64,000 nucleotides of DNA from Treponema ruminis (GTDB lineage: Bacteria > Spirochaetota > Spirochaetia > Treponematales > Treponemataceae): contig CP031518.1 of the NCBI GenBank assembly GCA_017161305.1, positions 62,001 to 126,000 of the forward strand, written 5' to 3'. The translations under genes were made by a program, and so were the position numbers. The notes under the pieces were generated by a model. The model searched no databases, was not told the DNA's origin, and worked only from the letters and a program-made list of their open reading frames with translations. Of the stretch, positions 14,931-64,000 are shown in pieces (position 1 is the first letter of the stretch; each line of letters begins with the position of its first letter).

Positions 14931-17027
14931 TCATACCTTGAACTGGTCGATTTGCGTACCAATTTGTTCGATTGAATTCTTCATTTTTTCGGCGATTTCA
15001 GAAAGGGCGGCTCCGGTTTCATTGATTTTCTTTGCACCGACTGCCATTTCTTCCATGCTGGCCTTCATGACGGTTGTAGCATTCTGAAGGTTCCGAACTT
15101 CATCAAGAATCTGTTTGTTTCCGATGGACATTTCTTCGGATGCAGTGCGGACTTCAATAGTGCTGTCGTTCATTGACTGAAGGGAATCCGTGATTTGCTT
15201 TGAGCCTTCCTGCTGTTCTTCCATTGCAGATTTAATCTGACGGACGAGCTGGTCTGTGTCATGGATTTTTTCAGTAACGCTGTTGAATGCATCGCTTGAT
15301 TCCTGGGAAGCCGCTACAACAGAGTTGATTGATTCCTTGATGCTTGAAAGCTGATCACCGATTGTCTTCGACTGGATTGTAGATGTTTCTGAGAGTTTTC
15401 GGATTTCATCTGCTACAACGGCAAAGCCTTTTCCTGCGTCACCGGCATGGGCAGCCTCAATTGCGGCGTTCATGGCAAGAAGGTTAGTCTGGCTTGCGAT
15501 TGCGGCAATTGCGGCATTTGCTTCCTGAAGCATCTGTGACTGCTGTTCGATTTCATGAATTCGATCGTTTACATGAACCTGTTTTTCAGCACCGCTCTTT
15601 GCATCTTCCGTGAGGGAATCGAATGAGTGAGCCATTTTATCGACAGAATTGTTTACGGATGCGATGTTTCCGATCATCTCTTCGACTGCGGAAGAAGCAT
15701 TGCTTACGCTCTGAGACTGGTTTGCAATCATTCGTTCGAGGGATTCGATGTTTGATGCGATTTCGTTTACGGCACCGGCTGTCTGTGAAACGCTGTCACC
15801 CTGACATGAAATCTGATTGTGGACGCTCGTGATGTTTGCGATAATTTCGGTGATTGAAGCGCTTGTTTCCTGCATGCTCACGTCCAGGTCTTCACCTGCG
15901 GCTGCAAGGATTTCTTTTGAGCCTTTGACGTCAGAGACAATCGAATGGAGCTTTTCGGTGAATTTATTGAAGCCTTTTACAACGCCACCGATTTCATTGT
16001 TGACGTTTGCGGCTGCTCCTGTGATTCGCTGAGTCAAATCAGCTTTTCCGGATGCAATTTCGTCGATAGAAGACTGAACTTTCTGGAGAGGCTTGAGGGA
16101 ATGGAAAATTCCTGCACCGATTCCAAGAACAAGTGCGATTCCAAGGATGATTCCTGCGAATACGAGGGTGATTGAGATTTCGTTTGCGGTTGCATAAACC
16201 TGTCGTTCATCAATAATGAATGCGAAGCCCCAGTCTGCGTTTTCGACCGGTTGATAAGTGGCATACTGTTTACCGAGTTTGCCTGCGTCAATCCACATGT
16301 AGCCGCTCTGTTTCTGTTTAAGAGCCTGAATGACCGGCTGCAATGCTGCAAAAAGGGTATTTTTGCTTTCTTCATCTGTTTCTGGAGCAGAAGTTGCGAT
16401 TACGTCACCTTCGCTGTTGAAAAGGATTGCGTAACCTGTCTGGCCAAGCTGAATGGTTTTGATGAATTCTGTGAGCTTGTTTACGCCGACGACTGCGCTG
16501 TAGAAGCCGATTGTCCTGCCGTCTTTTTTGGCTGCCTGTGAGACATGAATAATCGTGCTTCCTGTGGATTTTGACGTTACCGGGTCATCGATGTTTGTGT
16601 CATTTCCCTGAACCATGATGGCCTGGAAGTAGACACGGTCTTTGACGTTGGTGACTTTGTTCTGGTCGTTGTAGAAGTCGCCTTTGTCATCGATGTAGCC
16701 GATTCGGTCAAAATCAGGAGTGCGTGACTTGGCGTGAGCAACGAGCCACTCCTGAATCTGATGGGGATCCTCTGTTTGGGTTACATCTGCCTCTGTGTAC
16801 ATGCGCATCTGCTTGATGTATTCGCTCAGGCGGATTGAAACTACATCTGCGTATGCCTCAGAGATTTTGCGGCAGTTAATTTCGTACGAATATGCTACAG
16901 ATTGCTTGGTGCGGCCCTTTACTACAAGAATCTGCACCGAAGTCAATGCTGCAACAATCACAACTGTAATGCCTACGATATAGTAGACCAATTTGCCCTG
17001 TTTCTTAGTCTTTGTCTTTTCGTTCAT
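14931..17027 (-). CDS. Methyl-accepting chemotaxis protein with dCache sensor
   Basis: 698 residues. A membrane helix near 15-35 ([22 protein letters not shown]), a large extracytoplasmic dCache-type domain (about 36-280, with [24 protein letters not shown] and [16 protein letters not shown]), a second helix near 285-310, HAMP, then a long signalling coiled coil. The tip carries [25 protein letters not shown], where CheW and CheA dock. It detects a small ligand and controls swimming. Transcription probably starts at the ATG itself: TGTTAAAAT lies 7 nt before it and there is no ribosome site. Confidence 0.95.
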
Positions 17028-17034
17028 AAAGACT

Positions 17035-17043
17035 ATTTTAACA
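17035..17043 (-). promoter_or_regulatory. Extended -10 box, leaderless promoter of the chemoreceptor
   Basis: Read on the minus strand, TGTTAAAAT ends 7 nt before the ATG at 17027. That puts the predicted +1 at or next to the start codon. No Shine-Dalgarno lies between. Confidence 0.55.
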
Positions 17044-17091
17044 CTGAAGTTTAAATTTGTGTAGTTTTTTCTATAAAATTCAATGTTATTT

Positions 17092-19176
17092 TTATCTTTT
17101 CAGAACTCTTGCCGCGTTTGCTACGGCGAGGATGCAGACTCCGACGTCTCCGAAAACTGCCAGCCACATGTTGCCGATTCCGACTGCGCTCAGGAGCATG
17201 ATTGCGACTTTTATGCCGATTGAAGCGTAAATGTTCTGCCAGACTGCGTTCATCGTGCGGCGGGAAATCTTGATTGCATCAATAAGGCGGCTTGGCTTGT
17301 CGTCCATGATTACAACGTCTGCGGCTTCGATTGCGGCATCACTTCCCAGGGCGCCCATTGCGATTCCTGCGTCGGCACGGGCGAGGACAGGACTGTCGTT
17401 GATTCCGTCACCAACGAAGATAAGCTTGTCCGTGCCAATTAATTCTTCGACTTTGGAAACTTTGTCTTCCGGGAGAAGGTCAGCGTAGACTGTATCGATT
17501 CCGAGATTTTCCGCAACGATTTGGGCTGTTGCCGCCGTGTCGCCGGTGAGCATTACGGTTTTTTTGATTCCCAGCTTTTTGAGACTACCAATCGTTTGCC
17601 TTGAATCTTCTTTTTCCTGATCAGAAATTACGATGTTTCCGGCGTAAAGACCGTCAACTGCAACGTGAACGATTGTTCCGGCTGCCGGGCCTTTGTCTTC
17701 TGTAAAGCCCGTGACTTTTTCCTGGAGCATGAGTTTTGCGTTTCCGGCTAAGACTGTTTTGCCGTCAACTACCGAGCGTATGCCAAATCCTGTGATTTCT
17801 TCCGGTTCGAGGATTTTGAGGGCATCGCAGAGGACACAGTGGTGTGCCTTTTTGAGTGACTTTGAAATCGGGTGGTTTGAATAGCTTTCAGCGTGAGTAG
17901 CGATTGCAAGCAAACTATCGTTCGTAAATCTATTTGCAGGATTGACCTGAGCGACGTCGAAAATGCCTTTTGTGAGGGTGCCTGTCTTGTCGAATACGGC
18001 GATTTTTGCCTTTGAAAGAATCTCGACGAAGTTTGAGCCTTTGATAAGAACGCCAGATTTTGAAGCAGCTCCGATTCCGCAGAAGAAAGCAAGTGGAACT
18101 GAAATTACGAGGGCACATGGACATGAAACGACGAGGAATGTAAGAGCGCGGTAAATCCAGACCGACCAGCCGTATTTTTCGAAAAGATCCGGTGCAAAGA
18201 ACTGCAATGCGAGTGGCGGAAGGACTGCAACTGCAAGGGCTGCGATACAGACAATCGGCGTGTAGACTTTTGCAAAGCGGGCGATGAATTTTTCGCTCTT
18301 TGCCTTGACCTCGCTTGCTTTTTCGGTGAGGTTGAGGATTCTTGTGACGGCGCTTTCTCCGTAAGATTTTGTGACGCGGATTTTAAGGAGGCCTGTCTGG
18401 TTTACAAAGCCTGCAAGAACTTCTGAATCAGGGGCAACTTCGCGTGGAAGACTTTCGCCTGTGAGGGCAGATGTGTCTGCAAAAGATTTTCCTTCGACTA
18501 CGATGCCGTCGAGGGCGATTCTCTCTCCGGCCTTTACCTGAATGATTTCACCAACCTGGACTTCTTCCGGTGAGACGACAATTTCTTTTCCGTCGCGGAT
18601 AACTGTTGCCTTGTCCGGGCGGATATCCATGAGGGCGGAAATTGAATCGCGGGAACGGTCAACGGCGTAATCCTGAACGAATTCGCCGAGGTTGTAAAAG
18701 AGCATGACGGCTACGGCTTCAGCATACTCGCCGACAAAAATCGCGCCGACCGAAGCGACGGTCATCAAAAACTGTTCGCCGAAGACGTTTCCCTTGTGGA
18801 TGTTACGGATTGCTCCCTTGATGACGTCCCGGCCGCAGATTAAATATGAGGCAAGATAAAGAATTCCGTAAATGAGGCGGGTGCTGGCTCCTGAATTTAC
18901 AAAACCAACCGAACGGAAGTTAGTTGAAAGACTCTGCAGGAGGGGAGAATCTGCTGAAAAAATCGGAAGATGCTCGAAAAGCAGGGCGGCGATAAAAATC
19001 ACACCAGCCAACAGGATTTTTTTGAGCGGAGAAGATTCTTCGTCATGTTCGCATTCGCAATGTCCTTCGTGGCAGTGCTCTTCGTGCTCATGGTCGTGCT
19101 CGTGATGGTCGTGCTCGCAGCAACCGCAATCACAGTGAATGTGCTCTCCAAGATGATTTTCATGTTTATGTTCCAT
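17092..19176 (-). CDS. zntA: Zn/Cd/Pb-exporting P1B-type ATPase
   Basis: 694 residues. The first 50 or so form a His/Cys-rich tail ([20 protein letters not shown]) in place of the usual CxxC heavy-metal domain. Then come membrane helices, the actuator TGES, the transmembrane metal site SCPCALVIS, the phosphorylated DKTGTLTKG, a nucleotide domain with HP, and [14 protein letters not shown]. The CPC motif and His-rich tail fit Zn(II), Cd(II) or Pb(II) efflux. Its ATG lies 3 bp after the ArsR stop, with the ribosome site GAGGAG inside the arsR-type gene, so the two are translated as a unit. Confidence 0.92.
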
Positions 19177-19179
19177 AAA

Positions 19180-19518
19180 TTACTCCTCAATGTGCTCTAA
19201 TCCCATGTTCAGGATTTTTGATACGTGATCGTCGCTGAGGGCGTAAAATAGCGATTTTCCTTCGCGGCGGTAACGGACCAGGCCGTTTGTTTTGAGAATT
19301 CTCAGCTGATGACTGATTGCGCTCTGAGTCATGCCGAGAACCTGTGCCAAATCCCCGACCGAAACTTCGCGCCCCAGAAGTGCGAAAAGAATCTTGATGC
19401 GGGTAGAGTCACCGAAAATCTTAAAAAGTTCGGCCAAATTGAAAAGCAAATCCTCGTCCGGCATTGAATCCGAGATTACCTGCAAATCTTCTGTGTTATC
19501 ACTTGAACAATTATTCAT
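19180..19518 (-). CDS. ArsR/SmtB-family zinc-sensing repressor
   Basis: 112 residues from the ATG at 19518. A winged helix-turn-helix (SVGDLAQVLGMTQSAISHQLRILKTNGLV) is followed by the alpha-5 metal site D96-x-H98-x10-H109-x2-E112, the Zn-sensing arrangement of SmtB/CzrA. An N-terminal Cys4 is also present. A longer frame opening with TTG at 19554 is rejected because that TTG is the first triplet of a -35 box. It should release its operator when zinc binds, inducing the adjacent efflux ATPase. Confidence 0.92.
   Translation of the reverse strand: MNNCSSDNTEDLQVISDSMPDEDLLFNLAELFKIFGDSTRIKILFALLGREVSVGDLAQVLGMTQSAISHQLRILKTNGLVRYRREGKSLFYALSDDHVSKILNMGLEHIEE
19504..19517. promoter_or_regulatory. 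Candidate ArsR/SmtB operator overlapping the start codon
   Basis: TGAATAA-TTGTTCA on the minus strand, symmetric at 6 of 7 pairs. It has the TGAA-N6-TTCA core typical of SmtB/CzrA operators. It overlaps the arsR-type start codon and lies just downstream of the predicted +1, so bound repressor would block transcription directly. Confidence 0.6.
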
Positions 19519-19525
19519 ATGTTTT

Positions 19526-19554
19526 ATGTTAAAACTATTAGGCAAATAAGTCAA
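19526..19554 (-). promoter_or_regulatory. Promoter of the arsR-zntA operon, leaderless
   Basis: On the minus strand TTGACT (19549-19554), a 17-bp spacer and TAACAT (19526-19531), then 7 nt to the ATG. Spacing is textbook for sigma70, and there is no Shine-Dalgarno. Confidence 0.65.
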
Positions 19555-19581
19555 TAATAAGCGTATTTTTTTTAGAGATTG

Positions 19582-19590
19582 TGTTATAAT
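19582..19590 (+). promoter_or_regulatory. Extended -10 box, leaderless promoter of first HD-GYP gene
   Basis: TGTTATAAT followed by 7 nt and the ATG at 19598. No ribosome site and no clear -35; the TG extension can compensate. Confidence 0.6.
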
Positions 19591-19597
19591 TTAGAAT

Positions 19598-20614
19598 ATG
19601 CAAAAAAAATATATAACATATTTAAAAAAGCAAATTAAAATCCGAAACATTCCTGTTCTTTTTGGTTATCTTCTATTTGTTGCCCTATATTTCCTTTCTG
19701 CAAAAGGCTCTCAATTAACTTCTGGTTCTAAAGAAATGCTCCACATTTTTGGGCACCAATATCCAATAGGTCTTCTGGCTCCTGTATGTTCTTCAATTTC
19801 AACTATCGTCCTGATTTGCATGGTCGTCTTCCATCGTAGAATCGGATTTTACACAGCTATGGTGATTCTTATAGTCCGTGCGATAAGGCTTGCTCGTGGT
19901 ATGACTCTCTTTCATCCTATGAGCCTTCCGGCATTTTTTACAACCGTTGTAGCCCTGCTTGCAATTATAATTATTTACCATAAAAGCAGGAGAATTGTTC
20001 AGGAGCATGAAACTCATAAAAAACAACTTGTAGATTTTAACAATTCCATTATTGATGCTTTCTCTGTCTGTATTGACGGTAAGGATTATTACACAAACGG
20101 GCATTCTCTCCGGGTTGCAAAATATACTAAGATGCTTGCTCAAAAACTTGGTGAAGACGAGGAAACGGCTCAGAAATTCTACAACATTGCATTGCTGCAC
20201 GACATCGGAAAAATCGGTATTCCTGATGAAATCCTCAACAAGCCCGGCAAACTGGATGAAGAAGAATATGAGACGATAAAAACCCATACTTACCGCGGAT
20301 TTGAAATCCTTAAAAGGGTAAAGAGTCAGAAAGACATATCTTCAGGTGCTTACTATCATCATGAGCGCTATGACGGCAAGGGATATCCTTCAAAGCTAAG
20401 CGGAAAGAAAATTCCTTGGGTTGCGCGAATTATTTCCGTTGCCGATGCCTTTGACGCCATGAATTCAACCCGGCCTTACCGAAAAAAGATGCCGATGGAT
20501 CAGATTGTCAAGGAAATCAAGGACTGTTCAGGCAGCCAGTTTGACCCGGTTGTCGCAAAAGCCTTCCTTGATCTGTACGAAGAGGGGCTTTTTGACAATA
20601 TTAAAACGGAATAG
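19598..20614 (+). CDS. Membrane HD-GYP c-di-GMP phosphodiesterase (copy 1)
   Basis: 338 residues. About four membrane helices (residues 15-130) and a short coiled linker lead into an HD-GYP domain with an intact active site: HDIGKIGIPDEILNKPGKL, HHERYDGKGYP and ARIISVADAFDAM. It should hydrolyse c-di-GMP at the membrane. Its closest visible relative is the next gene: same length, same topology, near-identical catalytic half, diverged membrane half. The pair is a tandem duplication, each copy with its own leaderless promoter. Confidence 0.92.
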   Translation: MQKKYITYLKKQIKIRNIPVLFGYLLFVALYFLSAKGSQLTSGSKEMLHIFGHQYPIGLLAPVCSSISTIVLICMVVFHRRIGFYTAMVILIVRAIRLARGMTLFHPMSLPAFFTTVVALLAIIIIYHKSRRIVQEHETHKKQLVDFNNSIIDAFSVCIDGKDYYTNGHSLRVAKYTKMLAQKLGEDEETAQKFYNIALLHDIGKIGIPDEILNKPGKLDEEEYETIKTHTYRGFEILKRVKSQKDISSGAYYHHERYDGKGYPSKLSGKKIPWVARIISVADAFDAMNSTRPYRKKMPMDQIVKEIKDCSGSQFDPVVAKAFLDLYEEGLFDNIKTE

Positions 20615-20645
20615 TTATAAATCTATATGATTTTTTAAAAAACCG

Positions 20646-20654
20646 TGTTATAGT
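20646..20654 (+). promoter_or_regulatory. Extended -10 box, leaderless promoter of second HD-GYP gene
   Basis: TGTTATAGT followed by exactly 7 nt and the ATG at 20662, as in front of the first copy, although the surrounding bases differ. Confidence 0.55.
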
Positions 20655-20661
20655 TTATAAC

Positions 20662-21660
20662 ATGAAAAAAAGTATAATCCAGATAATCAGTAAAATTACA
20701 TCCAAATTAGGATGCCTTTCGCTTTTGCTCTTCTATGTGGTTATGGCCTATTTTGCCAGAAAAACATCAATGTCTACCGAGACTTTTTCAGTCTCTGGTC
20801 ATATTTTGCCAGTGAATGTTCTGGCTGGTGTTTTTTCTTCCTTAGTGGCTGTTGCTTTGATCTCGCTTACGGTTTTCTACCGAAGATTAGGATTTTATAC
20901 GGCTTTAGTTATTCTTGGCTGGCGTTTTATTTCCCTGACTATTGGGCTTTTTCAGTTTAGGCCGGGCTGTTTGCCAGGATTGTTCATTACGATTGGTACT
21001 ACTCTATCAGTTGTGATTATTTATAAGAGAACTGAAATGCTTTTACAATCTGAAGAGAGCCGTAGAAATGATATTTTGGATTTCACGAATTCCATTATTG
21101 ACTCGTTTTCAGTTTGTATTGACGGAAAGGATTCTTATACGAACGGACATTCGCTTCGGGTTGCGAAATACACCAGAATGCTTGCCTCAAAACTTGGCGA
21201 AGATGAAGAGACCTCCGGAAGATATTATAATATTGCCTTGCTTCATGATATTGGAAAAATTGGAATCCCTGATGAAATTTTGAATAAGCCAGGGAAATTA
21301 ACCGCGGCAGAATACGAAACCGTAAAAGAACATGCGTATCGAGGATATGAAATCCTCAAAAAAGTAAAAAAACAGACTTTTCTTGCCGAGGGAGCCAAGT
21401 ATCATCATGAGAGGTTTGACGGCAAAGGTTATCCGACAAATCTTGCAGGAACAAAAATTCCGTGGGTTGCGCGAATCATTTCCGTTGCCGATGCCTTTGA
21501 TGCCATGAGTTCAACCCGTCCTTACCGAAAAAAGCTCCCAATGGGGGAAATTGTTGAGGAAATAAAAAAATGTTCCGGAACGCAGTTTGATCCAGTTGTG
21601 GCAAAGGCTTTTCTTGAGCTTTATGAAGAAGGTGCTTTCGACGGATTAAAGACCGAATAA
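20662..21660 (+). CDS. Membrane HD-GYP c-di-GMP phosphodiesterase (copy 2)
   Basis: 332 residues, paralogue of the preceding gene. Four membrane helices, then HDIGKIGIPDEILNKPGKL, HHERFDGKGYP and VADAFDAMSSTRPYRKK, so the catalytic residues are intact. The membrane region has diverged while the linker SIIDSFSVCIDGKDSYTNGHS and the HD domain are largely conserved. This suggests the same reaction under a different input. A hairpin after the stop (21665-21698) could terminate in both directions. Confidence 0.92.
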   Translation: MKKSIIQIISKITSKLGCLSLLLFYVVMAYFARKTSMSTETFSVSGHILPVNVLAGVFSSLVAVALISLTVFYRRLGFYTALVILGWRFISLTIGLFQFRPGCLPGLFITIGTTLSVVIIYKRTEMLLQSEESRRNDILDFTNSIIDSFSVCIDGKDSYTNGHSLRVAKYTRMLASKLGEDEETSGRYYNIALLHDIGKIGIPDEILNKPGKLTAAEYETVKEHAYRGYEILKKVKKQTFLAEGAKYHHERFDGKGYPTNLAGTKIPWVARIISVADAFDAMSSTRPYRKKLPMGEIVEEIKKCSGTQFDPVVAKAFLELYEEGAFDGLKTE

Positions 21661-21664
21661 AAAA

Positions 21665-21698
21665 AACACTGCCCGATGAAAAATCTAAGGACAGTGTT
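21665..21698 (-). terminator. Rho-independent terminator of the flavin reductase gene
   Basis: On the minus strand AACACTGTCC pairs with GGGCAGTGTT (one mismatch in ten) across a 14-nt loop and is followed by a run of T. The stem may also stop transcription from the HD-GYP side. Confidence 0.65.
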
Positions 21699-21747
21699 GT
21701 GAAGTCTATAAAGTAAGCGAAAGAATATAACTACCAAACGATAGTTG

Positions 21748-22329: not shown

Positions 22330-22420
22330 GGTTTTCTCCTATGCCTAGTGGTTTAATAGACAAAAAGAATATCATAATTCTCTGATTTTGACAAAAGATT
22401 TTTGTGTGAACGTATTTTTA

Positions 22421-22429
22421 TGCTATAAT
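22421..22429 (+). promoter_or_regulatory. Extended -10 box, leaderless promoter of the Crp-type gene
   Basis: TGCTATAAT, then 7 nt, then the ATG at 22437. A TTGTGT at 22402-22407 could be a weak -35. No ribosome site. Confidence 0.55.
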
Positions 22430-22436
22430 ATGACTT

Positions 22437-23087
22437 ATGGACACTCCTGCAACTCTTTTTTCGTTTTGGAAAGATTTAACTCCTTCTCAGGCCGCTTTTT
22501 TAGAGCAAAACTTACGAACGGAAGTTTTTTCAGCGGGGAAATTGATTCATCGTTCTGACGGAGAATGTCGTGGAGTTATGGCTGTCGTTTCTGGTAGCCT
22601 GCGGGTTTATTGCGTTTCTGAGGAAGGCCGCGAAGTTACGCTTTATCGGGTTGAGGCTGGTGATGTCTGTATTCTTTCGGCTTCGTGTCTAATGGATTCA
22701 ATTGTTTTTGATGTTCTGATTGAAGCGGGAGAAGAAACTACCGTTAGTTTGATACCGTCTGCAGTTCTTCACAAAGTTGAACTGGAAAATCCTCTTGTTG
22801 AGCTTTACATTTACAAAAATGCTACAGAGAAATTTTCTGAAGTCCTCTGGACGATTCAGCAGGTTCTTTTTATGAAAATTGACCAGAGAATTGCGCTTGC
22901 TTTGCATGACGAGAGATTGCGACAAAAAAGTAATGTGCTTTCTGTCACGCACGAAGATTTGGCAAAACAGATTGGAAGCGTGCGGGAAGTTGTCTCAAAA
23001 ACGCTTAAATATATGGAAGAAGAAGGACTTGTCCGTCTGGGCCGCGGAAAAATTGAGATTCTGGATACGGGAAAATTAGTTGTGTGA
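22437..23087 (+). CDS. Crp/Fnr-family transcription regulator
   Basis: 216 residues. An N-terminal cyclic-nucleotide-binding-like barrel (about 1-120, GKLIHRSDGECRGVMAVVSGSLRVY), a dimer helix, and a winged helix with THEDLAKQIGSVREVVSKTLKYMEEEGLV (about 170-200). It lacks the N-terminal cysteine cluster of Fnr, so an iron-sulfur sensor is not indicated; the ligand is unknown. Contains an exact copy of the 14-bp palindrome at 22736. It lies 54 bp before a ferredoxin operon with a Crp-like site between, which suggests it controls those genes. Confidence 0.9.
   Translation: MDTPATLFSFWKDLTPSQAAFLEQNLRTEVFSAGKLIHRSDGECRGVMAVVSGSLRVYCVSEEGREVTLYRVEAGDVCILSASCLMDSIVFDVLIEAGEETTVSLIPSAVLHKVELENPLVELYIYKNATEKFSEVLWTIQQVLFMKIDQRIALALHDERLRQKSNVLSVTHEDLAKQIGSVREVVSKTLKYMEEEGLVRLGRGKIEILDTGKLVV
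22736..22749. repeat. 14-bp palindrome AACTACCGTTAGTT
   Basis: Exact consensus match inside the Crp-type gene, encoding Thr-Thr-Val-Ser. A split version (AACTTACG and GGAAGTT) lies near 22512 in the same gene. Confidence 0.65.
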
Positions 23088-23097
23088 CTTAATCACA
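23083..23097. promoter_or_regulatory. Candidate Crp-type operator TGTGA-N5-TCACA
   Basis: A dyad overlapping the stop codon of the Crp-type gene and 45 bp before the ferredoxin ATG. The half-sites are perfect; the spacer is 5, not the 6 bp of E. coli CRP sites. Best read as the site from which the adjacent regulator controls the iron-sulfur operon. Confidence 0.55.
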
Positions 23098-23141
23098 TAC
23101 GATTTTTGATTTCCTGGTTATCCTTATGTTAAGAGGTGGCT

Positions 23142-24324: not shown

Positions 24325-24332
24325 AAATCGTT

Positions 24333-24742: not shown

Positions 24743-24745
24743 CTT

Positions 24746-27040: not shown

Positions 27041-27049
27041 TGTTATAAT
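27041..27049 (+). promoter_or_regulatory. Extended -10 box of the glycogen operon
   Basis: TGTTATAAT, then 9 nt, then the ATG at 27059. It overlaps the apparent upstream extension of the reading frame, which excludes a GTG start at 27038. Confidence 0.55.
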
Positions 27050-27058
27050 TATTCTAAT

Positions 27059-29161
27059 ATGGACTCGATTCGGACTAAAGCGGGAAAACCCATGAATTTG
27101 GGCACTACCGTTACGCCAAAGGGTGTGTATTTCACTGTATTCAGTAGGAATGCAAAAAAGATTTTTCTCGAACTCTATAATTCTGCGGAAGATGCAGTTC
27201 CGTATCACACGGTAGAGTTAACCCCGGAAGAAAACCGCACTGGTGATTTGTGGCATGTTTTTGTCGAAGGTCTCAAAGCCGGTGATTTGTATCTTTACCG
27301 GGTTGACGGTCCTTTTACGCCAAGCCGGGGCCATCGCTTTGACAAGAATCAATCTCTTTTTGATCCGCGTGCAAAGGCTTTTACGACGGGCTCTGTTTTC
27401 AAATACATGCAGCCTGGCAAAGATAAATACATGGAGCGTTTCCCAAAATGTGTAATCATTGATGACGATGAATACGATTGGGAAGACGACAAGCCTCTTG
27501 CAATTCCGCTCGAAAAATCCATCATTTACGAAACTCACTTGAAAGGTTTCACAGCTTCGCCTACTTCAAAGGTCGAGCATCCGGGCACATACCGCGGCCT
27601 TATCGAAAAAATTCCTTATCTTCAGTCACTTGGAATTTCAGCAGTTGAGCTTCTTCCTGTTTTTGAATTCGATCAGTACGAAAATACAAACGTCAATCCG
27701 CGTACTGGCGCCCGCATGAAGAATTACTGGGGCTACAGCACAATCGGTTTTTTTGCTCCAAAATGTTCTTATTCGAGCGACAAGACTCCTGGCGGATGTG
27801 TTCGTGAATTTAAGGACATGGTCAAGGCCCTTCATAACGCTGGAATCGAAATCATTCTCGACGTAGTTTTCAATCACACGGCCGAGGGCAATGAAAACGG
27901 AATTTCACTCAATTTCCGCGGCTTTGACAACAAGATTTTCTATCACCTTGTAAACGACCACAAAGAATATTACATGAACTATTCAGGCTGCGGTAACGCG
28001 GTCAATGCAAATCATCCGGTAGTTCAGGATTTCATCATCGACTGTCTGCATTACTGGGTTCTTGAAATGCACGTTGACGGCTTCCGTTTTGACCTGGCCA
28101 GCGAGCTTTGCCGTGACGAAAGGGGCTACATTTGTGACAATGCTCCGATTGCCAGGCGAATTGCCGAGGATTCAATTCTCCGCAACACAAAAATCATCGC
28201 TGAGCCCTGGGACTGCGGCGGCGCTTATCAGATCGGCAACTTCCCGGGCGGAAGATGGTGCGAATGGAACGACCACTACCGTGACGGAATCCGCCGCTTT
28301 ATCCGCGGTGACGAATACATTGCCAACGAGGCAGCCACACGAATTGCCGGTTCAAACGACATTTATGCTTTGAGCGGCCGTTCTCCGGTTCACTCAATCA
28401 ACTTCATCACGGCTCATGACGGCTTTACCCTCAACGATTTGGTCACTTACAACTACAAGCATAATGAGGATAACGGCGAATGCAACCGTGACGGCAACGA
28501 CAACAACCTCAGCTACAACTACGGTTACGAAGGTCCTACAATCAACCCAAAGATTGAGAATCTTCGTTCCACTCAGCTGCGCAATTTCTTCACAACGCTC
28601 ATGATTTCTCAGGGCGTTCCAATGTTCGTTGCTGGTGATGAAGTTCGTCGCACTCAGGGCGGCAACAATAACGCATATTGTCAGGACAATGAAACTTCCT
28701 GGTTTAATTGGGAAGATTTGAACACTAATTCGCAGATGCTTGAATTCGTTCAAAAACTGATTGCTTTGCGAAATCAGCATCCTGTGTTCCATCGTCGCAC
28801 TTTCTTTGGCGGAGCTGCTACAAGCCAGTTCAACGAGCCTCCTGACATCAGCTGGTTCAATTTTGACGGCACGATTCCGGACTGGAACAAGATGAACCGC
28901 TATCTTGGCTTCCGTCTTGGCGGAAAGGCTGCCGGGCTGCCAAAAGACGACAATGATTTCTTTGTCGCCATGAACATGGATATCCGCGATTTGACGATTA
29001 CCATTCCAAAGCCGTCGAGCGGACGAAAATGGTACCGCACAATCGACACCTCAATTCACAACCGAACCGCGATTCTGCTTGGTGGTGAAGAAGAAACCTT
29101 GAATTCCCAGGAGCACTATGTCCTTATGGCAAATAGTATCTTGGTTTTAATAAGCAAATAA
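27059..29161 (+). CDS. glgX: Glycogen debranching enzyme (GlgX/isoamylase type)
   Basis: 700 residues. A CBM48 domain (about 10-100, GVYFTVFSRNAKKIFLELY) precedes a GH13 barrel with DVVFNHTAEG, VDGFRFDLAS (nucleophile Asp), IIAEPWDCGG (acid Glu) and FITAHDGFTLND. It hydrolyses alpha-1,6 branches of glycogen. Start set at ATG 27059. It is followed after 18 bp by glycogen phosphorylase, so one operon degrades glycogen to glucose 1-phosphate. Confidence 0.93.
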   Translation: MDSIRTKAGKPMNLGTTVTPKGVYFTVFSRNAKKIFLELYNSAEDAVPYHTVELTPEENRTGDLWHVFVEGLKAGDLYLYRVDGPFTPSRGHRFDKNQSLFDPRAKAFTTGSVFKYMQPGKDKYMERFPKCVIIDDDEYDWEDDKPLAIPLEKSIIYETHLKGFTASPTSKVEHPGTYRGLIEKIPYLQSLGISAVELLPVFEFDQYENTNVNPRTGARMKNYWGYSTIGFFAPKCSYSSDKTPGGCVREFKDMVKALHNAGIEIILDVVFNHTAEGNENGISLNFRGFDNKIFYHLVNDHKEYYMNYSGCGNAVNANHPVVQDFIIDCLHYWVLEMHVDGFRFDLASELCRDERGYICDNAPIARRIAEDSILRNTKIIAEPWDCGGAYQIGNFPGGRWCEWNDHYRDGIRRFIRGDEYIANEAATRIAGSNDIYALSGRSPVHSINFITAHDGFTLNDLVTYNYKHNEDNGECNRDGNDNNLSYNYGYEGPTINPKIENLRSTQLRNFFTTLMISQGVPMFVAGDEVRRTQGGNNNAYCQDNETSWFNWEDLNTNSQMLEFVQKLIALRNQHPVFHRRTFFGGAATSQFNEPPDISWFNFDGTIPDWNKMNRYLGFRLGGKAAGLPKDDNDFFVAMNMDIRDLTITIPKPSSGRKWYRTIDTSIHNRTAILLGGEEETLNSQEHYVLMANSILVLISK

Positions 29162-41482: not shown

Positions 41483-41534
41483 TTGCTTAACACAACTTCA
41501 TTAATTTGATTCTTTTCTATTATAATGGTCTCAA

Positions 41535-53707: not shown

Positions 53708-53716
53708 TGTTATAAT
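53708..53716 (+). promoter_or_regulatory. Extended -10 box, leaderless promoter of the lipoprotein gene
   Basis: TGTTATAAT, then 7 nt, then ATG 53724; identical in motif and spacing to the promoter of the first HD-GYP gene. No ribosome site. Confidence 0.6.
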
Positions 53717-53723
53717 TCTTTTT

Positions 53724-54116
53724 ATGAGAAAGAGTTTTATTCCTTTTACTGCGCTTTTGTTGATTTCTTTTCTGGCGATTTCCTGCCACCGTGCTGAGCC
53801 GGAGCTTGATTCTTGGAGCGTTTTCACATACGAAGAATATCAGGGCAGGCTTTACGCAAGCCAGTTCAAAGACAGGGTTTATATCGTTTTATGCGGGAAT
53901 TTTGCCGGAATTGAGGCAAGCCTTAAGCTGAATCATTTGTGTACTCAGGAACAGTTTGAAATCTTTAAGGAAAAGCTGGTAGAGGCGGGGTGTGAAAGCA
54001 GGGGAGAGGCCGAAAAACCTGATGTAGAAGGTTATCCCGACCTCTCAATGTACCTGTCTTTCGTTTTCTCAAGCGACGAACTCCACGATTTGTGGTGTCA
54101 GTTCGGCTTGGAATGA
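53724..54116 (+). CDS. Small putative lipoprotein
   Basis: 130 residues. Signal MRKSFIPFTALLLISFLAISC ends in a lipobox cysteine (C21). The mature part is acidic with aromatic residues (SWSVFTYEEYQGRLYASQF) and two further cysteines near 93 and 125; no family recognised. Converges with the thioredoxin gene, 6 bp apart. Transcript predicted to be leaderless. Confidence 0.7.
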   Translation: MRKSFIPFTALLLISFLAISCHRAEPELDSWSVFTYEEYQGRLYASQFKDRVYIVLCGNFAGIEASLKLNHLCTQEQFEIFKEKLVEAGCESRGEAEKPDVEGYPDLSMYLSFVFSSDELHDLWCQFGLE

Positions 54117-55202: not shown

Positions 55203-55284
55203 ACTGGCTGCCGCCCTTTCGGGGTTCGGTCACCCTCATTCTTTCGCTACGCTCAGGAACAAGCCCCTCCACGGCGGGCGCGTG
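55203..55284. repeat. GC-rich palindromic intergenic repeat
   Basis: Contains GCCCTTTCGGGGTTCGG and TTCGCTACGCTCAGGAAC blocks related to 48771-48870. Abuts the nadE stop and lies upstream of the LysM gene. Confidence 0.6.
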
Positions 55285-55285
55285 A

Positions 55286-57024: not shown

Positions 57025-57192
57025 GGGTAAATATTACTCAGAATATTGATTTATGTCGATAAACTTTTGATTACCATGAATTTGCAGATCTTAAGGCGGA
57101 GGAAAAATATTGAAATAATATAAAATTTTCTTGTGAAATTCGTATGAAACGGTATATAATAGGTATACAACTTTCTGAAAATAAGGAAATTT

Positions 57193-59685
57193 ATGGATAA
57201 AAGAAAAACTCTTATCTTTTTAAGAAATTTTTCGCTTTTGCTTAGTCTCCTTTGTATATTTGTCCTCTTTATTTTTCTTCTCCGCTTTATCACAAATGAG
57301 ATTGATACAAATGATGAAATAAAACCGCCTGCAGAAGTTCGCCATCGGGTTTTGTTTATCAGCTCTTATGACCCGCTTTATTTTACTTACGATTCTCAGA
57401 TAAAGGGCCTTGGAAAAAGTCTTTACCCAAACGGAATTGAATATGACGTTGCCTACATGTATTCCGATGCCCGCGGCAGTGCTTCAATCGACCAGTTTTA
57501 CAGTTTTATAAAAAACCGCTTCTCAAATATGAAAAAATACGAAGCGATTCTTCTTGGTGATGACGCAGCCCTGGAATTCGCCCTCAAATATCAGTCAGAG
57601 CTTTTTCCAAACATGCCCATGATTTTCTTCGGTGTCAACAATTATGACCTGGCTTTAAAAGCTTCCCGAAATCCCTACATATCCGGTCTTTACGAAAATG
57701 ACTACCTTGAAGAAACGATAAATCTTGCCATATCTCTTTTCCCGGAGCGAAAAACTTTAATCGGCCTTCATGACCAGTCGTCTTCGGGCAAAACTGATTT
57801 CGAGATTTTCTGGAGTCTTCGCGAGAAATATCCAGAATATTCTTTTGTTGATTTGGATTCTTCCCTTTTGTCACAGACTGATTTGGTTTTCCTGCTTGCT
57901 GAGCTTCCAAAGGATTCCATTCTCATTTACATGACCTGTTATTCTGACAAGCAGAGCAATGTTTATTCCATGCTTGCCCGCACAAGTACGGTCGTCCGTT
58001 CCGCATCGGTTCCTATTTTCAGAAATTATGTTGGTGGCGAAGGAATGGGTATTCTGGGCGGAGTTCACATGGACGTAGAGGAACAGTGCTATAAAGCCGG
58101 CCAGATGCTTATTTGGGCTCTGGGCAATGGCGACCTTTCAAAAATGCCCCTCGATGCTCACACAGAAAGCCGCACAGCTTTTGATTACCGCCTCATGAAG
58201 TCTTTTAACCTGGATTTTTCCCTTCTTCCAAAGGATACGATTTTCTATAACCGGCCTGAGTCTTTCCTGTCTCACTATGGCAAGATTCTTCCTACAATAA
58301 TAATGCTTTTTGTAACGCTCATTATTATTCTGCTTTATTCAAAAGTCGGCAAAATGATTTCCATGACCTACATTGCCGAGCTTAAAAAATCGCAAAAGAC
58401 ACTTTTGGATTCTCAGGAGCAGCTCACTTATCAGGCCGAATACGATGAAATTCTTGACGTATTGAACAGGCGCACAATAACGGCCTGGCTGCGTGATAAA
58501 ATGAAGCTGGACAGCGTTTATTCGGTCGTCATCATTGATATCGATGACTTTAAAATGCTCAACGAAAATTATGGTCATTCACTTGCTGACAGCATTTTGC
58601 AGTACATCGTTGCCCTTCTAAAAGGAATGGTCGAAGAGGGCGGCTGGAAGATTGCCCGCTTTGGCGGTGACGAGCTCCTTCTTGTTATTCCTGATGAAAT
58701 TCTCGACATGGATTGCCAGACTGTCCGCCAGCTTTTTGCGGCTATCCGTGCTCCGATTCCTCTCGGTGACGAAAGCCTTGCGATTACGGCCAGCATGGGC
58801 GCTTCCTGCTCCGACGGAATTACGCCTGCAGAACAGCACATCATCAACGCAGAAACGGCAATGTATGAGGCAAAGACCCGGGGCAAGAACGGTATCGTAA
58901 TTTACGACGATAAAATGAAGGAAAAGGCCCTCGAAGAAATCCGCATTAAAGAAAAATTGCAGGCTGCATTTGACAACGACGGCTTCTTCATGCTCTATCA
59001 GCCCCAGATTGATACCCAGACCAAACAGGTTTCAGGTTACGAGGCCCTGGTGCGAATGAAGGAACCGGGCATTTATCCGGGCCAGTTTATTCCTGTTGCA
59101 GAGCGCAGCGGCTGGATCTGGCGTATCGGCCGAATCACCACCGAGCTTGTAATCAAGCAGCTTGCGGCATGGCGTGACCAGGGCAAAACCCTGCATCCGG
59201 TTTCAGTAAACTTTTCGAGCAACCAGCTCAACGATCACGGTTACGTGGATTTTGTCGAAGAATTGCTCAACCGCTACGATATTCCTCCTCATTATCTGGA
59301 AATTGAAATTACTGAAGGCCTCTTCCTGGAAAAGAGCGTCCTGGCCGATGACATTTTCCGCCGCTTCAAGGATTTGGGAATCCGCCTGCTCATGGATGAT
59401 TTTGGAACAGGCTATTCTTCTCTGGGCTACCTCACATACATTCCGGTTGACGTGATCAAGCTGGACAAATCTTTGGTTGATACCTATCTGGTTGACGGCA
59501 AGGATTCTTTCATCCGTAATATCATACACCTCATGCACGACTTGGACAAAAACATGATTATCGAGGGTGTTGAGGAAGAGCGCCAGTTCCTGCGACTTAA
59601 GGAATTCGGTGCTGATACGATTCAGGGATATTTCTTCTCGAAGCCAATTCCTGCCGACGAGGCAATTGATTTTACAGTAAGCTAA
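57193..59685 (+). CDS. Membrane GGDEF-EAL protein with ABC-binding-protein-like sensor
   Basis: 830 residues. An N-terminal helix (about 10-35), a periplasmic domain of the ABC substrate-binding type (about 48-350, RVLFISSYDPLYFTYDSQIKGL and PMIFFGVNNYDLAL), a second helix near 362-385, then GGDEF with RFGGDELLLVI and EAL with YEALVRM, EITEG, MDDFGTGYSS, KLDKS and QGYFFSKP. Both catalytic motifs look intact; no RxxD inhibitory site is seen. It could make or break c-di-GMP on ligand binding. AAGGA precedes the ATG. Overlaps the next, convergent gene by 4 bp. Confidence 0.92.
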   Translation: MDKRKTLIFLRNFSLLLSLLCIFVLFIFLLRFITNEIDTNDEIKPPAEVRHRVLFISSYDPLYFTYDSQIKGLGKSLYPNGIEYDVAYMYSDARGSASIDQFYSFIKNRFSNMKKYEAILLGDDAALEFALKYQSELFPNMPMIFFGVNNYDLALKASRNPYISGLYENDYLEETINLAISLFPERKTLIGLHDQSSSGKTDFEIFWSLREKYPEYSFVDLDSSLLSQTDLVFLLAELPKDSILIYMTCYSDKQSNVYSMLARTSTVVRSASVPIFRNYVGGEGMGILGGVHMDVEEQCYKAGQMLIWALGNGDLSKMPLDAHTESRTAFDYRLMKSFNLDFSLLPKDTIFYNRPESFLSHYGKILPTIIMLFVTLIIILLYSKVGKMISMTYIAELKKSQKTLLDSQEQLTYQAEYDEILDVLNRRTITAWLRDKMKLDSVYSVVIIDIDDFKMLNENYGHSLADSILQYIVALLKGMVEEGGWKIARFGGDELLLVIPDEILDMDCQTVRQLFAAIRAPIPLGDESLAITASMGASCSDGITPAEQHIINAETAMYEAKTRGKNGIVIYDDKMKEKALEEIRIKEKLQAAFDNDGFFMLYQPQIDTQTKQVSGYEALVRMKEPGIYPGQFIPVAERSGWIWRIGRITTELVIKQLAAWRDQGKTLHPVSVNFSSNQLNDHGYVDFVEELLNRYDIPPHYLEIEITEGLFLEKSVLADDIFRRFKDLGIRLLMDDFGTGYSSLGYLTYIPVDVIKLDKSLVDTYLVDGKDSFIRNIIHLMHDLDKNMIIEGVEEERQFLRLKEFGADTIQGYFFSKPIPADEAIDFTVS

Positions 59686-61346
59686 TCTCTTGTAGCCTTC
59701 ATTTCGACTTTCATGGCGTACATTTTTTCATCAGCGCGCTCAACGGCACTTTTGAAGTCAGCCGGTGAACGAGGGGTGAAGAATTCATATCCATAGGCAG
59801 CGGAAAATTTGTATTCGCTTTCTTCCTGATTTTTAACGGCTTCATCAAAATGGTGCAGCATGGTCATTACGTTCTCGCGGTAGAAATCCTGGCAGACGCA
59901 GATGAATTCGTCTCCACCCACCCTGTAAATCTTTCCCATATTGCCGACTACACTTACGAGACAGTCGCAGAATGACTTTATCATTTTATCGCCGATTAAA
60001 TGGCCGAAGGTGTCGTTGATTTTTTTGAGGTGGTTCATGTCAAAGACAATCAGGCAGTATTCTTCATGCGAATCAGCCTTTTCGGCAAAATTATCGACCA
60101 GGGTAAACCATGCGGTTTTGTTGTAAACGCCGGTCGCAATGTCGATGAAGGCCATGGTCTTGTACATGTCAGCCTTGCTTACCTCTTTAAAAATCTTAAG
60201 TTCCTTCTGATAGGTAATAAAAAGCGTTGAGGTGAATGTGAGGGCGACTCCAATGCTTATTATTGAATTGAAGAATAAAGTGTTGAAAATTGAAAGGGTT
60301 GCAAGCGTAAATACGATGATTGAAGTAATCATTGAGAAGATGCAGAGATATTTAAATCTGCTGGTCTTAACCCAATCCTCTTTAAAGAGGGAAATTAATA
60401 CGTAAATGCTAGAAATTAAGTAGATTGTATAGGACAGGAAGAGGGTGTTTTTTATAGCCCTGATGCCTGTAAACTGGAGTGTAAACTGAAGGAGAATGAC
60501 CGGAATGATGACCCAGTAAAATGTCTTGAGGAAGCGGCGGTTCTTCTGATCGGTGATGCTTCTCATGAAAAGGAATGTAAAGAGGGATATGAAAAACTGG
60601 TTGAGGTACTTGAAGCACCACAAGAGGGGAAGGTTACCTGTGAAGAAAAGAAGGAGGGTTGAATCATCCAGCTGCCAGAGTCCGATGAAAAAAGTGAGCA
60701 GGGCAAAGTCCAGCAGAGTGTAGTCCTTTTTGTTTGTGTAGGAGAAAAGATGGTGGGTTCCGAAAAGGAAGAAGGATGTTACGATGAACATAACGCCAAG
60801 CAGGAAATTATTGAGGTGCTTGTAGATGATTGTAAAAAGAACCTGGGCGCTGTCTCCCAAAAAGATTTCCTCGTATTTTCCGGCGCAGATGTCAATTATT
60901 GCCTCGCTTTCGATGGAGAGGACTGATTTTTCTGAAATTGAAGGCAGGTCCACGAAATTGTAGATTGCCCTGTAGGATTTGATTGTTTTGGGCGTGGTGA
61001 CGGTCTTGTATGAGTAAATTTCCTGGTCGTTGAGCTTTAATTTGACGTCCTGATGCTGCGAGTAAAAACAGATTGAGCTTGTGTCCAAATCGTTGGGGCT
61101 GATTTCGTGGTAGATTGTGGCTCTCATTCCGTCAGCAGGAACTTGTGCCGGGAGTGAAGGAATATAAACCTTTTCGCCGTAGTGATCGTAGTAGTACCAG
61201 CCTTTGTTGAAAGTCTTTTCCTGAAATTTGAAAATCTGCGCATCTTTTGTGTTTCGGCCTGCGATTACAACAAAAATGCCGGCTGCAATAAACAGAACAA
61301 CGAGAAGATTGATTGTGTAGGTCTTAATATTCTGCGAAATTTGCAT
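59682..61346 (-). CDS. 7TM-sensor diguanylate cyclase
   Basis: 554 residues. An N-terminal helix (about 12-28), an extracytoplasmic beta-sandwich (about 35-175), seven membrane helices (about 180-375) in the 7TMR-DISM style, and a C-terminal GGDEF domain with VFDMNHLKKINDTFGHLIGDKM and RVGGDEFICV, canonical and likely active. A sensory diguanylate cyclase. The promoter TTGTTT-N17-TAAAAT ends 7 nt before the ATG, so the message is predicted to be leaderless. Convergent with, and overlapping, the preceding gene. Confidence 0.9.
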   Translation of the reverse strand: MQISQNIKTYTINLLVVLFIAAGIFVVIAGRNTKDAQIFKFQEKTFNKGWYYYDHYGEKVYIPSLPAQVPADGMRATIYHEISPNDLDTSSICFYSQHQDVKLKLNDQEIYSYKTVTTPKTIKSYRAIYNFVDLPSISEKSVLSIESEAIIDICAGKYEEIFLGDSAQVLFTIIYKHLNNFLLGVMFIVTSFFLFGTHHLFSYTNKKDYTLLDFALLTFFIGLWQLDDSTLLLFFTGNLPLLWCFKYLNQFFISLFTFLFMRSITDQKNRRFLKTFYWVIIPVILLQFTLQFTGIRAIKNTLFLSYTIYLISSIYVLISLFKEDWVKTSRFKYLCIFSMITSIIVFTLATLSIFNTLFFNSIISIGVALTFTSTLFITYQKELKIFKEVSKADMYKTMAFIDIATGVYNKTAWFTLVDNFAEKADSHEEYCLIVFDMNHLKKINDTFGHLIGDKMIKSFCDCLVSVVGNMGKIYRVGGDEFICVCQDFYRENVMTMLHHFDEAVKNQEESEYKFSAAYGYEFFTPRSPADFKSAVERADEKMYAMKVEMKATRD

Positions 61347-61353
61347 ACTTTTA

Positions 61354-61382
61354 ATTTTATTGGAAGAAAATTAAAAAAACAA
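61354..61382 (-). promoter_or_regulatory. Leaderless promoter of the 7TM diguanylate cyclase
   Basis: On the minus strand TTGTTT (61377-61382), 17 bp, TAAAAT (61354-61359), then 7 nt to ATG 61346. The region is AT-rich, so chance is not excluded. Confidence 0.5.
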
Positions 61383-61435
61383 TGGAAAGACCCCGCCAGA
61401 CCCCATTATTTAAAGACAAAATCTTCTATTTAATA

Positions 61436-61441
61436 TATAAT
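61436..61441 (+). promoter_or_regulatory. Leaderless -10 box of ettA
   Basis: TATAAT then 7 nt then ATG 61449. AAGACA lies at the -35 position (61413-61418). No ribosome site. Confidence 0.5.
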
Positions 61442-61448
61442 TTTAAGC

Positions 61449-63212
61449 ATGGCAAAGACATTCGACGATAAAAAAATCATTTACACGATGGATCGCGTTT
61501 CCCGCGCGTATGGAACTAAAGTTGTACTCAAAGACATTTCCATTTCTTACTATTACGGAGCAAAAATCGGCGTTATTGGTGAAAACGGTGCCGGTAAGTC
61601 TTCACTTTTCAAGATTTTTGCAGGAATCGACAAGGATTACACCGGCGAAACAAAACTCCTTCCGGGCTACTCAATGGGATATCTGGAGCAGGAGCCTTAT
61701 CTTGAGCCGGGAAAGACCGTTCTTGAAGTCGTTAAAGAGGGCGTAAAGCCGATTACAGATTTGCTCGCCGAATTTGACAAAGTAAACGAGGCTTTCGGTG
61801 ATCCTGATGCTGATTTTGACAAGCTCTGCGCACGTCAGGCAGAAATTCAGGAAAAGCTTGATGCAGCCGACGCATGGAACCTTGATTCAAACCTTGAGCT
61901 TGCAATGGACGCACTCCGCTGTCCTCCGGGCGACCAGGTCGTAGACGTTCTTTCCGGTGGTGAGCGCCGCCGAGTTGCCTTGTGCCGACTCCTTTTGCAG
62001 AAGCCGGACATCCTGCTTCTGGACGAACCTACAAACCACCTCGATGCAGAGACAGTCGCTTGGCTCGAACGCCACCTCAAGGACTATCCGGGCACAATCA
62101 TCGCTATCACTCACGACCGCTACTTCCTCGACAATGTAGCCGGTTGGATTTTGGAAATGGACCGCGGTGAAGGCTATCCTTTCAAAGGAAATTACTCAGA
62201 ATGGCTTGAGGCAAAGGAAAAACGCCTTGCTCTCGAAGAAAAACAGGCTTCAACCCGCCGCCGCGAAATGCAGGAAGAGTTGGAGTGGATTCACGCCGGA
62301 GCAAAAGGCCGTCAGGCAAAGCACAAGGAACACATCACAAAATACGAAGCCCTGCTTGCAGAAGAATCAAAGCGCGTTCAGCTTAAGGACACACAGATTT
62401 CAATTCCGGCCGGTCCTCGTCTTGGAAGTGTCGTAATCGATGCAGAAAAGCTCACAAAATCATTCGATGACAAGCTTCTCTTTGAAAACCTCGACTTCCA
62501 TATTCCGGCAGGAAGCGTTGTCGGAATCGTTGGTCCTAACGGTGCTGGTAAAACTACACTCTTCAAGATGATTGCAAGTGCCGCAGGTCAGGAAATCGAA
62601 CTCCCAGACGGCAAGATGGGCAAGGAGCTTCCTGATTCTGGTTCAATCAAAGTGGGCGACACTGTTAAGCTCGTCTACGTTGACCAGATGCGTTCAAAGC
62701 TCGACCCGAACAAGACAATCTACGAAATGCTTTCAGGTGGAAGCGACCTCGTTAAGCTCGGTGCAGTTGACGAAAAAGGCCGCGCCCTCAACGGTGCAGT
62801 CCGTGAAATCAACGCACACGCATACTGCTCTTGGTTCAACTTCAACTCAGCAGAACAGAACAAAAAAATCAGCGTTCTTTCCGGTGGTGAAAAGAACCGC
62901 CTCAATATGGGTATGATGTTCAAGGAAGCAGGAAACGTCCTCATGCTCGACGAACCTACAAACGATTTGGATATCACGACAACCCGTTCCCTCGAAGAAG
63001 CCATCAACAGCTTTGCGGGTGTAGTTCTCGTAATCAGCCATGACCGCTACTTCCTCGACCGAATCTGCACTCACATCCTGGCTTTCGAAAACAACTCGGA
63101 AGTTCACTTCGTAGAAGGAAGCTGGAGCGATTACGTCGAATGGCGCAAAAACGTCCTCGGAATCGACGACGACGTTCCTCATAAGACAGTTTATCGTAAG
63201 CTTACAAGATAA
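61449..63212 (+). CDS. ettA: Energy-dependent translational throttle protein (ABC-F)
   Basis: 587 residues with two ABC domains: [36 protein letters not shown]; then [35 protein letters not shown]. The linker [31 protein letters not shown] is the EttA P-site-tRNA interaction motif. A roughly 20-residue insertion ([17 protein letters not shown]) sits after the second Walker A. It gates early translation elongation according to energy state. TATAAT lies 7 nt before the ATG, without a ribosome site. Confidence 0.94.
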
Positions 63213-63252
63213 AAAAAATCCCGCCTGTTCTTGAAGCAGACGGGATTTTTTA
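63213..63252. terminator. Two-way terminator between ettA and the convergent gene
   Basis: AATCCCG-C-CTG pairs with CAG-A-CGGGATT (one internal mismatch), with A-runs before and T-runs after, so it can work in both directions. Confidence 0.8.
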
Positions 63253-63268
63253 TGTTCAAATCAGATGA

Positions 63269-63766
63269 TTATTTTGCCTGGCTTGGGTGCTGGATGTGAG
63301 CTGCGCCCAAAATTGAGCCGACAGCTGCTGTGATGAGGCCTGCCAAAACCAGATATCCGCCGACACTTGTGTAACCGAAGATTGGTGTGACCGGGCTTGT
63401 GTAGAATTTTGTGTAAGCGCCGAACATGTCTGTGAGGGCCGGTGCGATTGAAATGACTGATGCGATTTCAAAAGCGAGGGCAAGCAAAGTTACGATGATG
63501 TCGCCGACGATTGTCTTTGTGCAGAAGAACAATGCGATTCCTGCGATTGAGCAAAGCCATGTGATTACGATGAAAGTTGAGTTGTAAGCAGATGGTGCTT
63601 TGTTGAAGTAAGAAGCTGCTCCAAAAACGTTCTTTAATACAGTTCCTGATTCATCTTTGAGGAAAAATGTTGGAATCATAAATCCGATAAAGGTGAGAAC
63701 CATTCCTGCGAGGAAAATTACTCGGTCGAGAGAGCGTTCTTTTTTAAGTGTTTCGAAATATTTCAT
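63269..63766 (-). CDS. Four-helix membrane protein of unknown function
   Basis: 165 residues with four hydrophobic helices (about 17-36, 65-84, 88-108 and 134-156) and short loops. No family motif is recognised. AGGAGGCC precedes the ATG, and a TATAAT lies further upstream (63801-63806 on the minus strand), so this gene has an ordinary leader. Divergent from the malic enzyme gene. Confidence 0.7.
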   Translation of the reverse strand: MKYFETLKKERSLDRVIFLAGMVLTFIGFMIPTFFLKDESGTVLKNVFGAASYFNKAPSAYNSTFIVITWLCSIAGIALFFCTKTIVGDIIVTLLALAFEIASVISIAPALTDMFGAYTKFYTSPVTPIFGYTSVGGYLVLAGLITAAVGSILGAAHIQHPSQAK

Positions 63767-63849
63767 TTTTTATAAGGCCTCCTGTAAAAACTGTACCTAT
63801 ATTATAATTATATACGATTCTAGCAGTTTATTAATCACAATTTTTGTAC

Positions 63850-63855
63850 TATAAT
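63850..63855 (+). promoter_or_regulatory. Leaderless -10 box of the malic enzyme gene
   Basis: TATAAT then 7 nt then ATG 63863, with no ribosome site. A weak TTTATT lies at the -35 position (63827-63832). Confidence 0.5.
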
Positions 63856-63862
63856 GACCAAC

Positions 63863-64000
63863 ATGAGTACAATTTACGAAAAAGCACTTGAAAAACATGT
63901 AGAATGGAAGGGCAAAATTTCAACTGAATTGAAAATGCCTTTGGAAAATCGTGATGACCTTTCTGTAGCTTACACTCCTGGAGTTGCAGAACCTTGCCGC
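63863..64000 (+). CDS. NAD(P)-dependent malic enzyme, N-terminal part
   Basis: The first 46 codons, cut by the window edge: MSTIYEKALEKHVEWKGKIS and then LSVAYTPGVAEPCR, the start of the malic enzyme N-terminal domain with its YTPGVA signature. Malic enzyme converts malate to pyruvate and CO2 with NAD(P). Predicted to be read from a leaderless message. Confidence 0.85.
   Translation, partial: MSTIYEKALEKHVEWKGKISTELKMPLENRDDLSVAYTPGVAEPCR

Follow-up and report, generated by a model that had tools for sequence, protein, structure and literature searches.

A putative class of leaderless transcripts with -10 boxes next to the start codon in Treponema ruminis

In a 64,000-nucleotide (nt) stretch of the Treponema ruminis genome (bases 62001-126000 of a single contig of 2,895,582 bases), hereafter called the window, eleven genes have a -10 promoter box placed almost directly before their ATG, and the same arrangement recurs in a sample of the rest of the genome. 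Judging from the DNA sequence, we consider that genes in which 6-7 nt (the gap) separate this box from the start codon produce leaderless or near-leaderless, AUG-first transcripts, a reading to which we give a probability of about 0.88. Such genes would represent about 7-8% of genes, roughly one in thirteen. This would define a genome-wide leaderless class for Treponema, where the annotation of starts and the design of reporters would otherwise expect a Shine-Dalgarno (SD) sequence.

Position of -10 boxes relative to start codons

The distance from box to start codon, compared with shuffled DNA, had been set beforehand as the test of a first-pass annotation of the window. It was counted in 800 kb from outside the window, sampled as 40 stretches of 20 kb (28% of the genome, 601 usable genes), in which genes were called by coding composition with a choice of start blind to upstream signals. 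The -10 matrix (generic E. coli frequencies, not trained on this genome), the -35 matrix and the SD list were entered by hand. A sharp peak was found at 6-7 nt. Indeed, an exact TATAAT was present at gap 6 in 12 genes and at gap 7 in 13, with about one gene in each other bin. Boxes scoring at least 5 occurred at gap 6-7 in 49 of the 600 genes scored against shuffles, while 100 dinucleotide shuffles of the upstream DNA averaged 6.6 and never exceeded 14; with a score of at least 6 there were 30 genes (shuffles 1.0, maximum 4). The excess over shuffles is about 42/600 (7%), to be read beside this raw count and the 64/601 genes obtained at gap 5-9, and at this predicted size the proposal of the first-pass annotation that leaderless initiation is widely used appears fair. 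Its gap of exactly 7 describes nine genes of the window, but in the sampled stretches gap 6 is no rarer than gap 7 (34 genes against 15, score at least 5), and "exactly 7" is therefore a feature of this window, rejected as a genome rule. Over the whole genome, the pattern TATAATN{6,7}ATG was counted 133 times and the control spacing TATAATN{16,17}ATG 65 times.

It had also been noted that neighbouring genes with AGGAGG keep their -10 box 25-45 nt away. Before the ATG of long open reading frames (464 kb, window included), exact TATAAT is spread broadly over gaps 28-46 as a hump of 32 in 19 bins, with 12 in the 18 bins of gaps 10-27. Among the genes outside the window, an SD is present in 69% of those having a box (score at least 6) at gap 25-45 versus 1/30 at gap 6-7. 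In the 464-kb count, gaps 6, 7 and 8 gave 7, 10 and 4 ATG starts, no GTG start, and 0, 1 and 0 TTG starts.

Other properties distinguish these genes. The 64 candidates among the 601 genes (-10 at gap 5-9) were compared with the remaining 537 genes: an SD was found in 3/64 against 295/537, a TGn extended -10 in 28/64 against 29/537, and a pyrimidine at -1 in 56/64 against 307/537, this last being what a transcription start (+1) at the A itself would predict. A stricter set of 54 genes, five of them from the window, for which both an ATG start and the absence of an SD were required, showed hexamers of the -35 type enriched at 16-18 bp (mean score 1.96 versus -1.15 at other offsets). This set gave a -1 pyrimidine in 48/54 against 185/318 (P = 6e-6) and an upstream neighbour on the opposite strand in 31/54 against 70/311 SD genes (P = 7e-7). 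These opposite-strand neighbours place the genes of the class at the heads of transcripts.

Within the window, the sequence read at each coordinate contains all eleven -10 boxes of the first-pass annotation, with a gap of 7 at nine starts, 8 at 41535 and 9 at 27059:

14931..17040, - strand: MCP chemotaxis receptor gene, start 17027; extended -10 TGTTAAAAT, box 17035-17040, gap 7
19180..19554, - strand: ArsR-family regulator gene, start 19518; -10 TAACAT 19526-19531, gap 7; -35 TTGACT 19549-19554, 17-bp spacer
19585..20614, + strand: HD-domain (HD_5) gene, start 19598; extended -10 19585-19590, gap 7; divergent from 19518
20649..21660, + strand: second HD-domain (HD_5) gene, resembling the first, start 20662; extended -10 TATAGT 20649-20654, gap 7
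22424..23087, + strand: CRP-family regulator gene, start 22437; extended -10 22424-22429, gap 7
27044..29161, + strand: glgX glycogen debranching gene, start 27059; extended -10 27044-27049, gap 9; probable 3-nt leader
41521..44030, + strand: hrpB helicase gene, start 41535; -10 41521-41526, gap 8; probable 2-nt leader
53711..54116, + strand: small gene with no Pfam or NCBIfam match, start 53724; extended -10 53711-53716, gap 7
59682..61359, - strand: GGDEF gene, start 61346; -10 TAAAAT 61354-61359, gap 7; divergent from ettA
61436..63212, + strand: ettA, ABC-F translation factor gene, start 61449; -10 TATAAT 61436-61441, gap 7
63850..64000, + strand: gene truncated at the end of the window, start 63863; -10 TATAAT 63850-63855, gap 7

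Six of these boxes are of the extended TGn form (17027, 19598, 20662, 22437, 53724 and 27059) and the SD score is 0 before all eleven starts, both as first described. Two -35 hexamers at 17-bp spacing had also been reported; one is clear (TTGACT, 19518), but the best hexamers at 17 bp elsewhere are weak (AAGACA at 61449, TTGTTT at 61346, TACACA at 17027, TTTATT at 63863 and TTTAAT at 27059). The idea that transcription starts at the A of the ATG agrees with the nine gap-7 genes, in all of which this A is nt 8 after the box and forms a pyrimidine-purine (YR) step with the base before it. It does not extend to the genes with gaps 8 and 9, which probably have leaders of 2 nt (41535) and 3 nt (27059), because their YR step sits at nt 7.

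Three identities were assigned above curated cut-offs: EttA (61449-63212; TIGR03719, 825.4 bits, cut-off 806.75), GlgX (27059-29161; TIGR02100, 723.6 bits, cut-off 640.9) and HrpB (41535-44030; TIGR01970, 576.5 bits, cut-off 546.15). The N-terminus encoded at 63863 is one that we take to resemble malic enzyme. In an Rfam search of the window, tRNA was the sole match.

Conservation of the box upstream of ettA and glgX

The EttA of the window matches proteins from Treponema and from Spirochaetaceae metagenome-assembled genomes, several of them named from ruminants, at up to 99%, and the genome is accordingly taken as that of a rumen-type Treponema. For Treponema, 80 ettA loci were collected, one of them from Treponema saccharophilum; one without its 5' end (L068) was unscored, and the row of the window joined to the 79 others makes 80 rows. 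A -10 box (score at least 4) lies at gap 4-10 in 64/79 loci, with gap 6 accounting for 47 and gap 7 for 11. On a tree of 80 EttA proteins, the presence or absence of the box needs 4 changes, whereas shuffled labels need 13.9. Of the 15 rows lacking it, 12 form one group (support 94%), and by eye all 12 have a purine-rich stretch resembling an SD. We suggest from these sequences that ettA switched to an SD-like leader mainly once, in a single rumen subclade, which offers a natural comparison of two ways to start the same protein. The switched subclade consists of loci L082, L084, L087, L089, L091, L093, L094, L095, L097, L098, L099 and L100.

A search of 58 genomes of the order, ten of which gave distant ABC-F matches only (best E above 1e-70), was restricted for scoring to the best 30 loci, including the locus of the window and 10 of its own genus; the order and Treponema sets overlap in kind. 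The box was found at gap 5-8 in 29 of these best 30 loci, which span four families with protein identities as low as 64%, and by eye it persists in families with GC-rich upstream DNA. According to PMC6723617, EttA binds the 70S initiation complex at its E site and has been proposed to throttle entry into elongation. In view of this proposed role, we find its recurrent, apparently leaderless start worth testing. It is a speculative and rather doubtful idea that selection maintains the leaderless start of ettA throughout the order as a control specific to this gene. EttA, which gates 70S initiation complexes into elongation, would then itself be made from an mRNA read by the SD-independent 70S route, so that its supply would be shielded from that step or would respond to it by feedback; one rumen subclade would have replaced this arrangement by an SD leader.

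Two local observations concern the neighbourhood of these genes. The 102-bp spacer between the divergent GGDEF gene and ettA (61347-61448) includes a GGGGTCTGGCGGGGTC stretch flanked by the two putative leaderless promoters. Elsewhere, an ABC-F gene (G000:C1:1207835-1208956, L211) and a GGDEF gene 2.7 kb further on (1211615-1212064, L245) each have one in-frame TAG in the matched frame.

GlgX was matched in 56 of the 59 genomes searched. Among the best 30 genus loci, own included, 26 have a -10 box, mostly at gaps 7-9, and all 30 start at the same residue with ATG. The CRP protein was matched in 9/59 genomes; 8/10 loci were used and 7 scored, and the box present in 5/7, own included, says little. 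We regard ettA and glgX as gene-specific and long-kept candidate leaderless starts, open to functional tests.

At the level of whole genomes, TATAATN{6,7}ATG exceeds TATAATN{16,17}ATG in 44/44 genomes of the genus (own included; ratios 1.01-2.76), in 109/118 genomes of the family, in the 2/2 other genomes of the order and in 4/9 of the rest of the class. Outside the class the excess is missing in 91/125 genomes and present in 34/125 (total ratio 0.90). This does not mean that leaderless genes are missing there: the -10 may differ, and Leptospira has such genes by RNA data.

Proposed initiation route and alternative readings

We propose that a sigma70-type polymerase would bind a -10 box, often extended (TGnTATAAT), that ends 6-7 nt before the ATG. 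RNA synthesis would start at a purine following a pyrimidine, 7-8 nt downstream of the box, which would be the A of the ATG itself, so that the mRNA would open with AUG and be initiated without SD pairing; presumably a 70S ribosome would bind the 5'-terminal AUG directly. For the genes with gaps 8-9 (41535 and 27059), the RNA would probably begin 2-3 nt before the ATG. For these genes we infer the type of sigma factor and where the 5' ends lie, and also the 70S route, which is established for leaderless mRNAs elsewhere.

One alternative, compatible with leaderless initiation, is that these mRNAs have leaders of no more than 1-5 nt and are read by a route that depends on the 5' end without being strictly leaderless. 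This has some appeal, given the YR step at nt 7, 2-3 nt before the ATG, in the gap-8 and gap-9 genes and the gaps of 8-10 at 16 of the 26 boxed glgX loci, but the sharpness of the 6-7 peak and the pyrimidine before the ATG in 56/64 candidates speak against it, and we hold it possible without favouring it. It is unlikely that the boxes are real promoters while the main transcript comes, with a leader, from a promoter further upstream. The same-strand upstream neighbour of 23/54 genes in the stricter set would allow it; the other 31/54 have their neighbour on the opposite strand, and 61/64 candidates lack an SD that a leader could expose.

We consider it very unlikely that the true starts lie downstream, the ATG next to the box being an in-frame coincidence in a gene with a leader. 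The starts are predicted, and the signal-blind caller took a later one for 20662, 22437, 27059 and 53724; yet the same caller produces the peak, the listed ATGs have no SD, GlgX keeps its ATG at the same first residue in 30/30 loci and the EttA alignments within the order begin at residue 1 or 2. Finally, chance matches in AT-rich intergenic DNA would find some basis in the base composition of the window (36-49% GC per 4 kb) and in the TATAAT boxes seen at other distances too. For the class as a whole this is refuted by the dinucleotide shuffles (49/600 observed versus 6.6), and the ettA box is retained where upstream DNA is GC-rich by eye; such an origin is extremely improbable, but single genes may be chance cases, with about 7 of the 49 expected.

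Several further points weigh against our reading of the gap 6-7 genes as leaderless. The genome entry is scored as 81% complete. The preference for AUG is weak by counts, ATG starts being found in 60/64 candidates and 474/537 other genes, and at 19518 an additional YR step at nt 6 would give a 2-nt leader. Conservation failed for hrpB, with a box in 10/27 scored loci (of 30, two had no ATG and one ran off its contig). Outside the order, 27 ettA loci were fetched and 25 run, a fragment (L312) and a distant paralogue (L313) being left out; L292 has one upstream base, leaving 24 scoreable loci of the same class, of which 6 have the box and many an SD by eye, a low count that doubles as a negative control of the scoring method. 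Moreover, a survey that included 6 Spirochaetes species describes, in the part consulted, no leaderless-type base bias on average (PC3 -3.25; PMC5397173).

Known leaderless systems and functions of the class

A leaderless class is already known in spirochaetes, since two papers report it as predicted in spirochaete genomes (PMC3160421) and mapped in Leptospira (PMC5243855). The "TA-led" leaderless genes were predicted in 6/18 Spirochaetes genomes, with a mean of 3.9% of genes (1.8-6.9) (Zheng et al. 2011, PMC3160421); as excerpted, they resemble the present genes in having TANNNT about 10-12 nt before the start codon and no SD, whereas here the class reaches about 7-8% by another method and the extended -10 is frequent. 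By word search, "Treponema" is absent from the main text of that paper. Leptospira interrogans, also a spirochaete with leaderless transcripts, was studied by differential RNA sequencing, and the mapped start coincided with the start codon for 184 genes at 30 C and 170 at 37 C; there the 5' ends were measured and the authors identified no promoter motif at the mapped starts except that of sigma54, while in T. ruminis the motif is clear and the class is predicted from sequence (PMC5243855). Leaderless mRNAs are described in extracts of a review (PMC9031893) as having an AUG at or near the 5' end and no SD, with direct binding of 70S; the lack of an SD is common to the T. ruminis class, for which the place of the AUG is predicted and the ribosomal route extended by analogy.

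None of the titles listed in the literature searches concerns leaderless transcripts of Treponema or of ettA. The word "leaderless" is used of peptides in PMC9200625 and appears in the reference lists only of PMC12687308 and PMC9159947, and PMC10502375 treats leaderless mRNAs and EttA in separate places. What the present analysis would add is how large the class is in a rumen Treponema, how often its -10 is extended, and the cases of ettA and glgX, which have been retained for long.

Signalling and regulatory genes had been singled out by the first-pass annotation. They do figure among the eleven genes, but an enrichment is not supported: the box was found in 7/30 GGDEF genes (P = 0.08; of 32 matches 30 were retrieved, and several of the hits are at alternative starts) and 1/19 MCP genes (P = 0.71), window genes included in both, neither differing significantly from the baseline of 69/601 by the same rule. 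For the Pfam tallies, 54 leaderless and 54 sampled SD proteins were reduced to 49 each, by leaving out five leaderless proteins cut by stretch ends and dropping the last five SD ones to equalise. Among the first 25 families in view (of 92 for the leaderless set and of 69 for the SD set), the leaderless families include aminotransferase, EPSP synthase, helicase, alanine racemase and HSP33, as well as GGDEF (3), EAL (2) and SpoIIE (2) amid many housekeeping families.

In the window, the two similar HD-domain genes (19598-21660) are adjacent and both have an extended -10 at gap 7, with the ArsR-type gene divergent from the first; it looks as if the leaderless promoter had been retained after their duplication.

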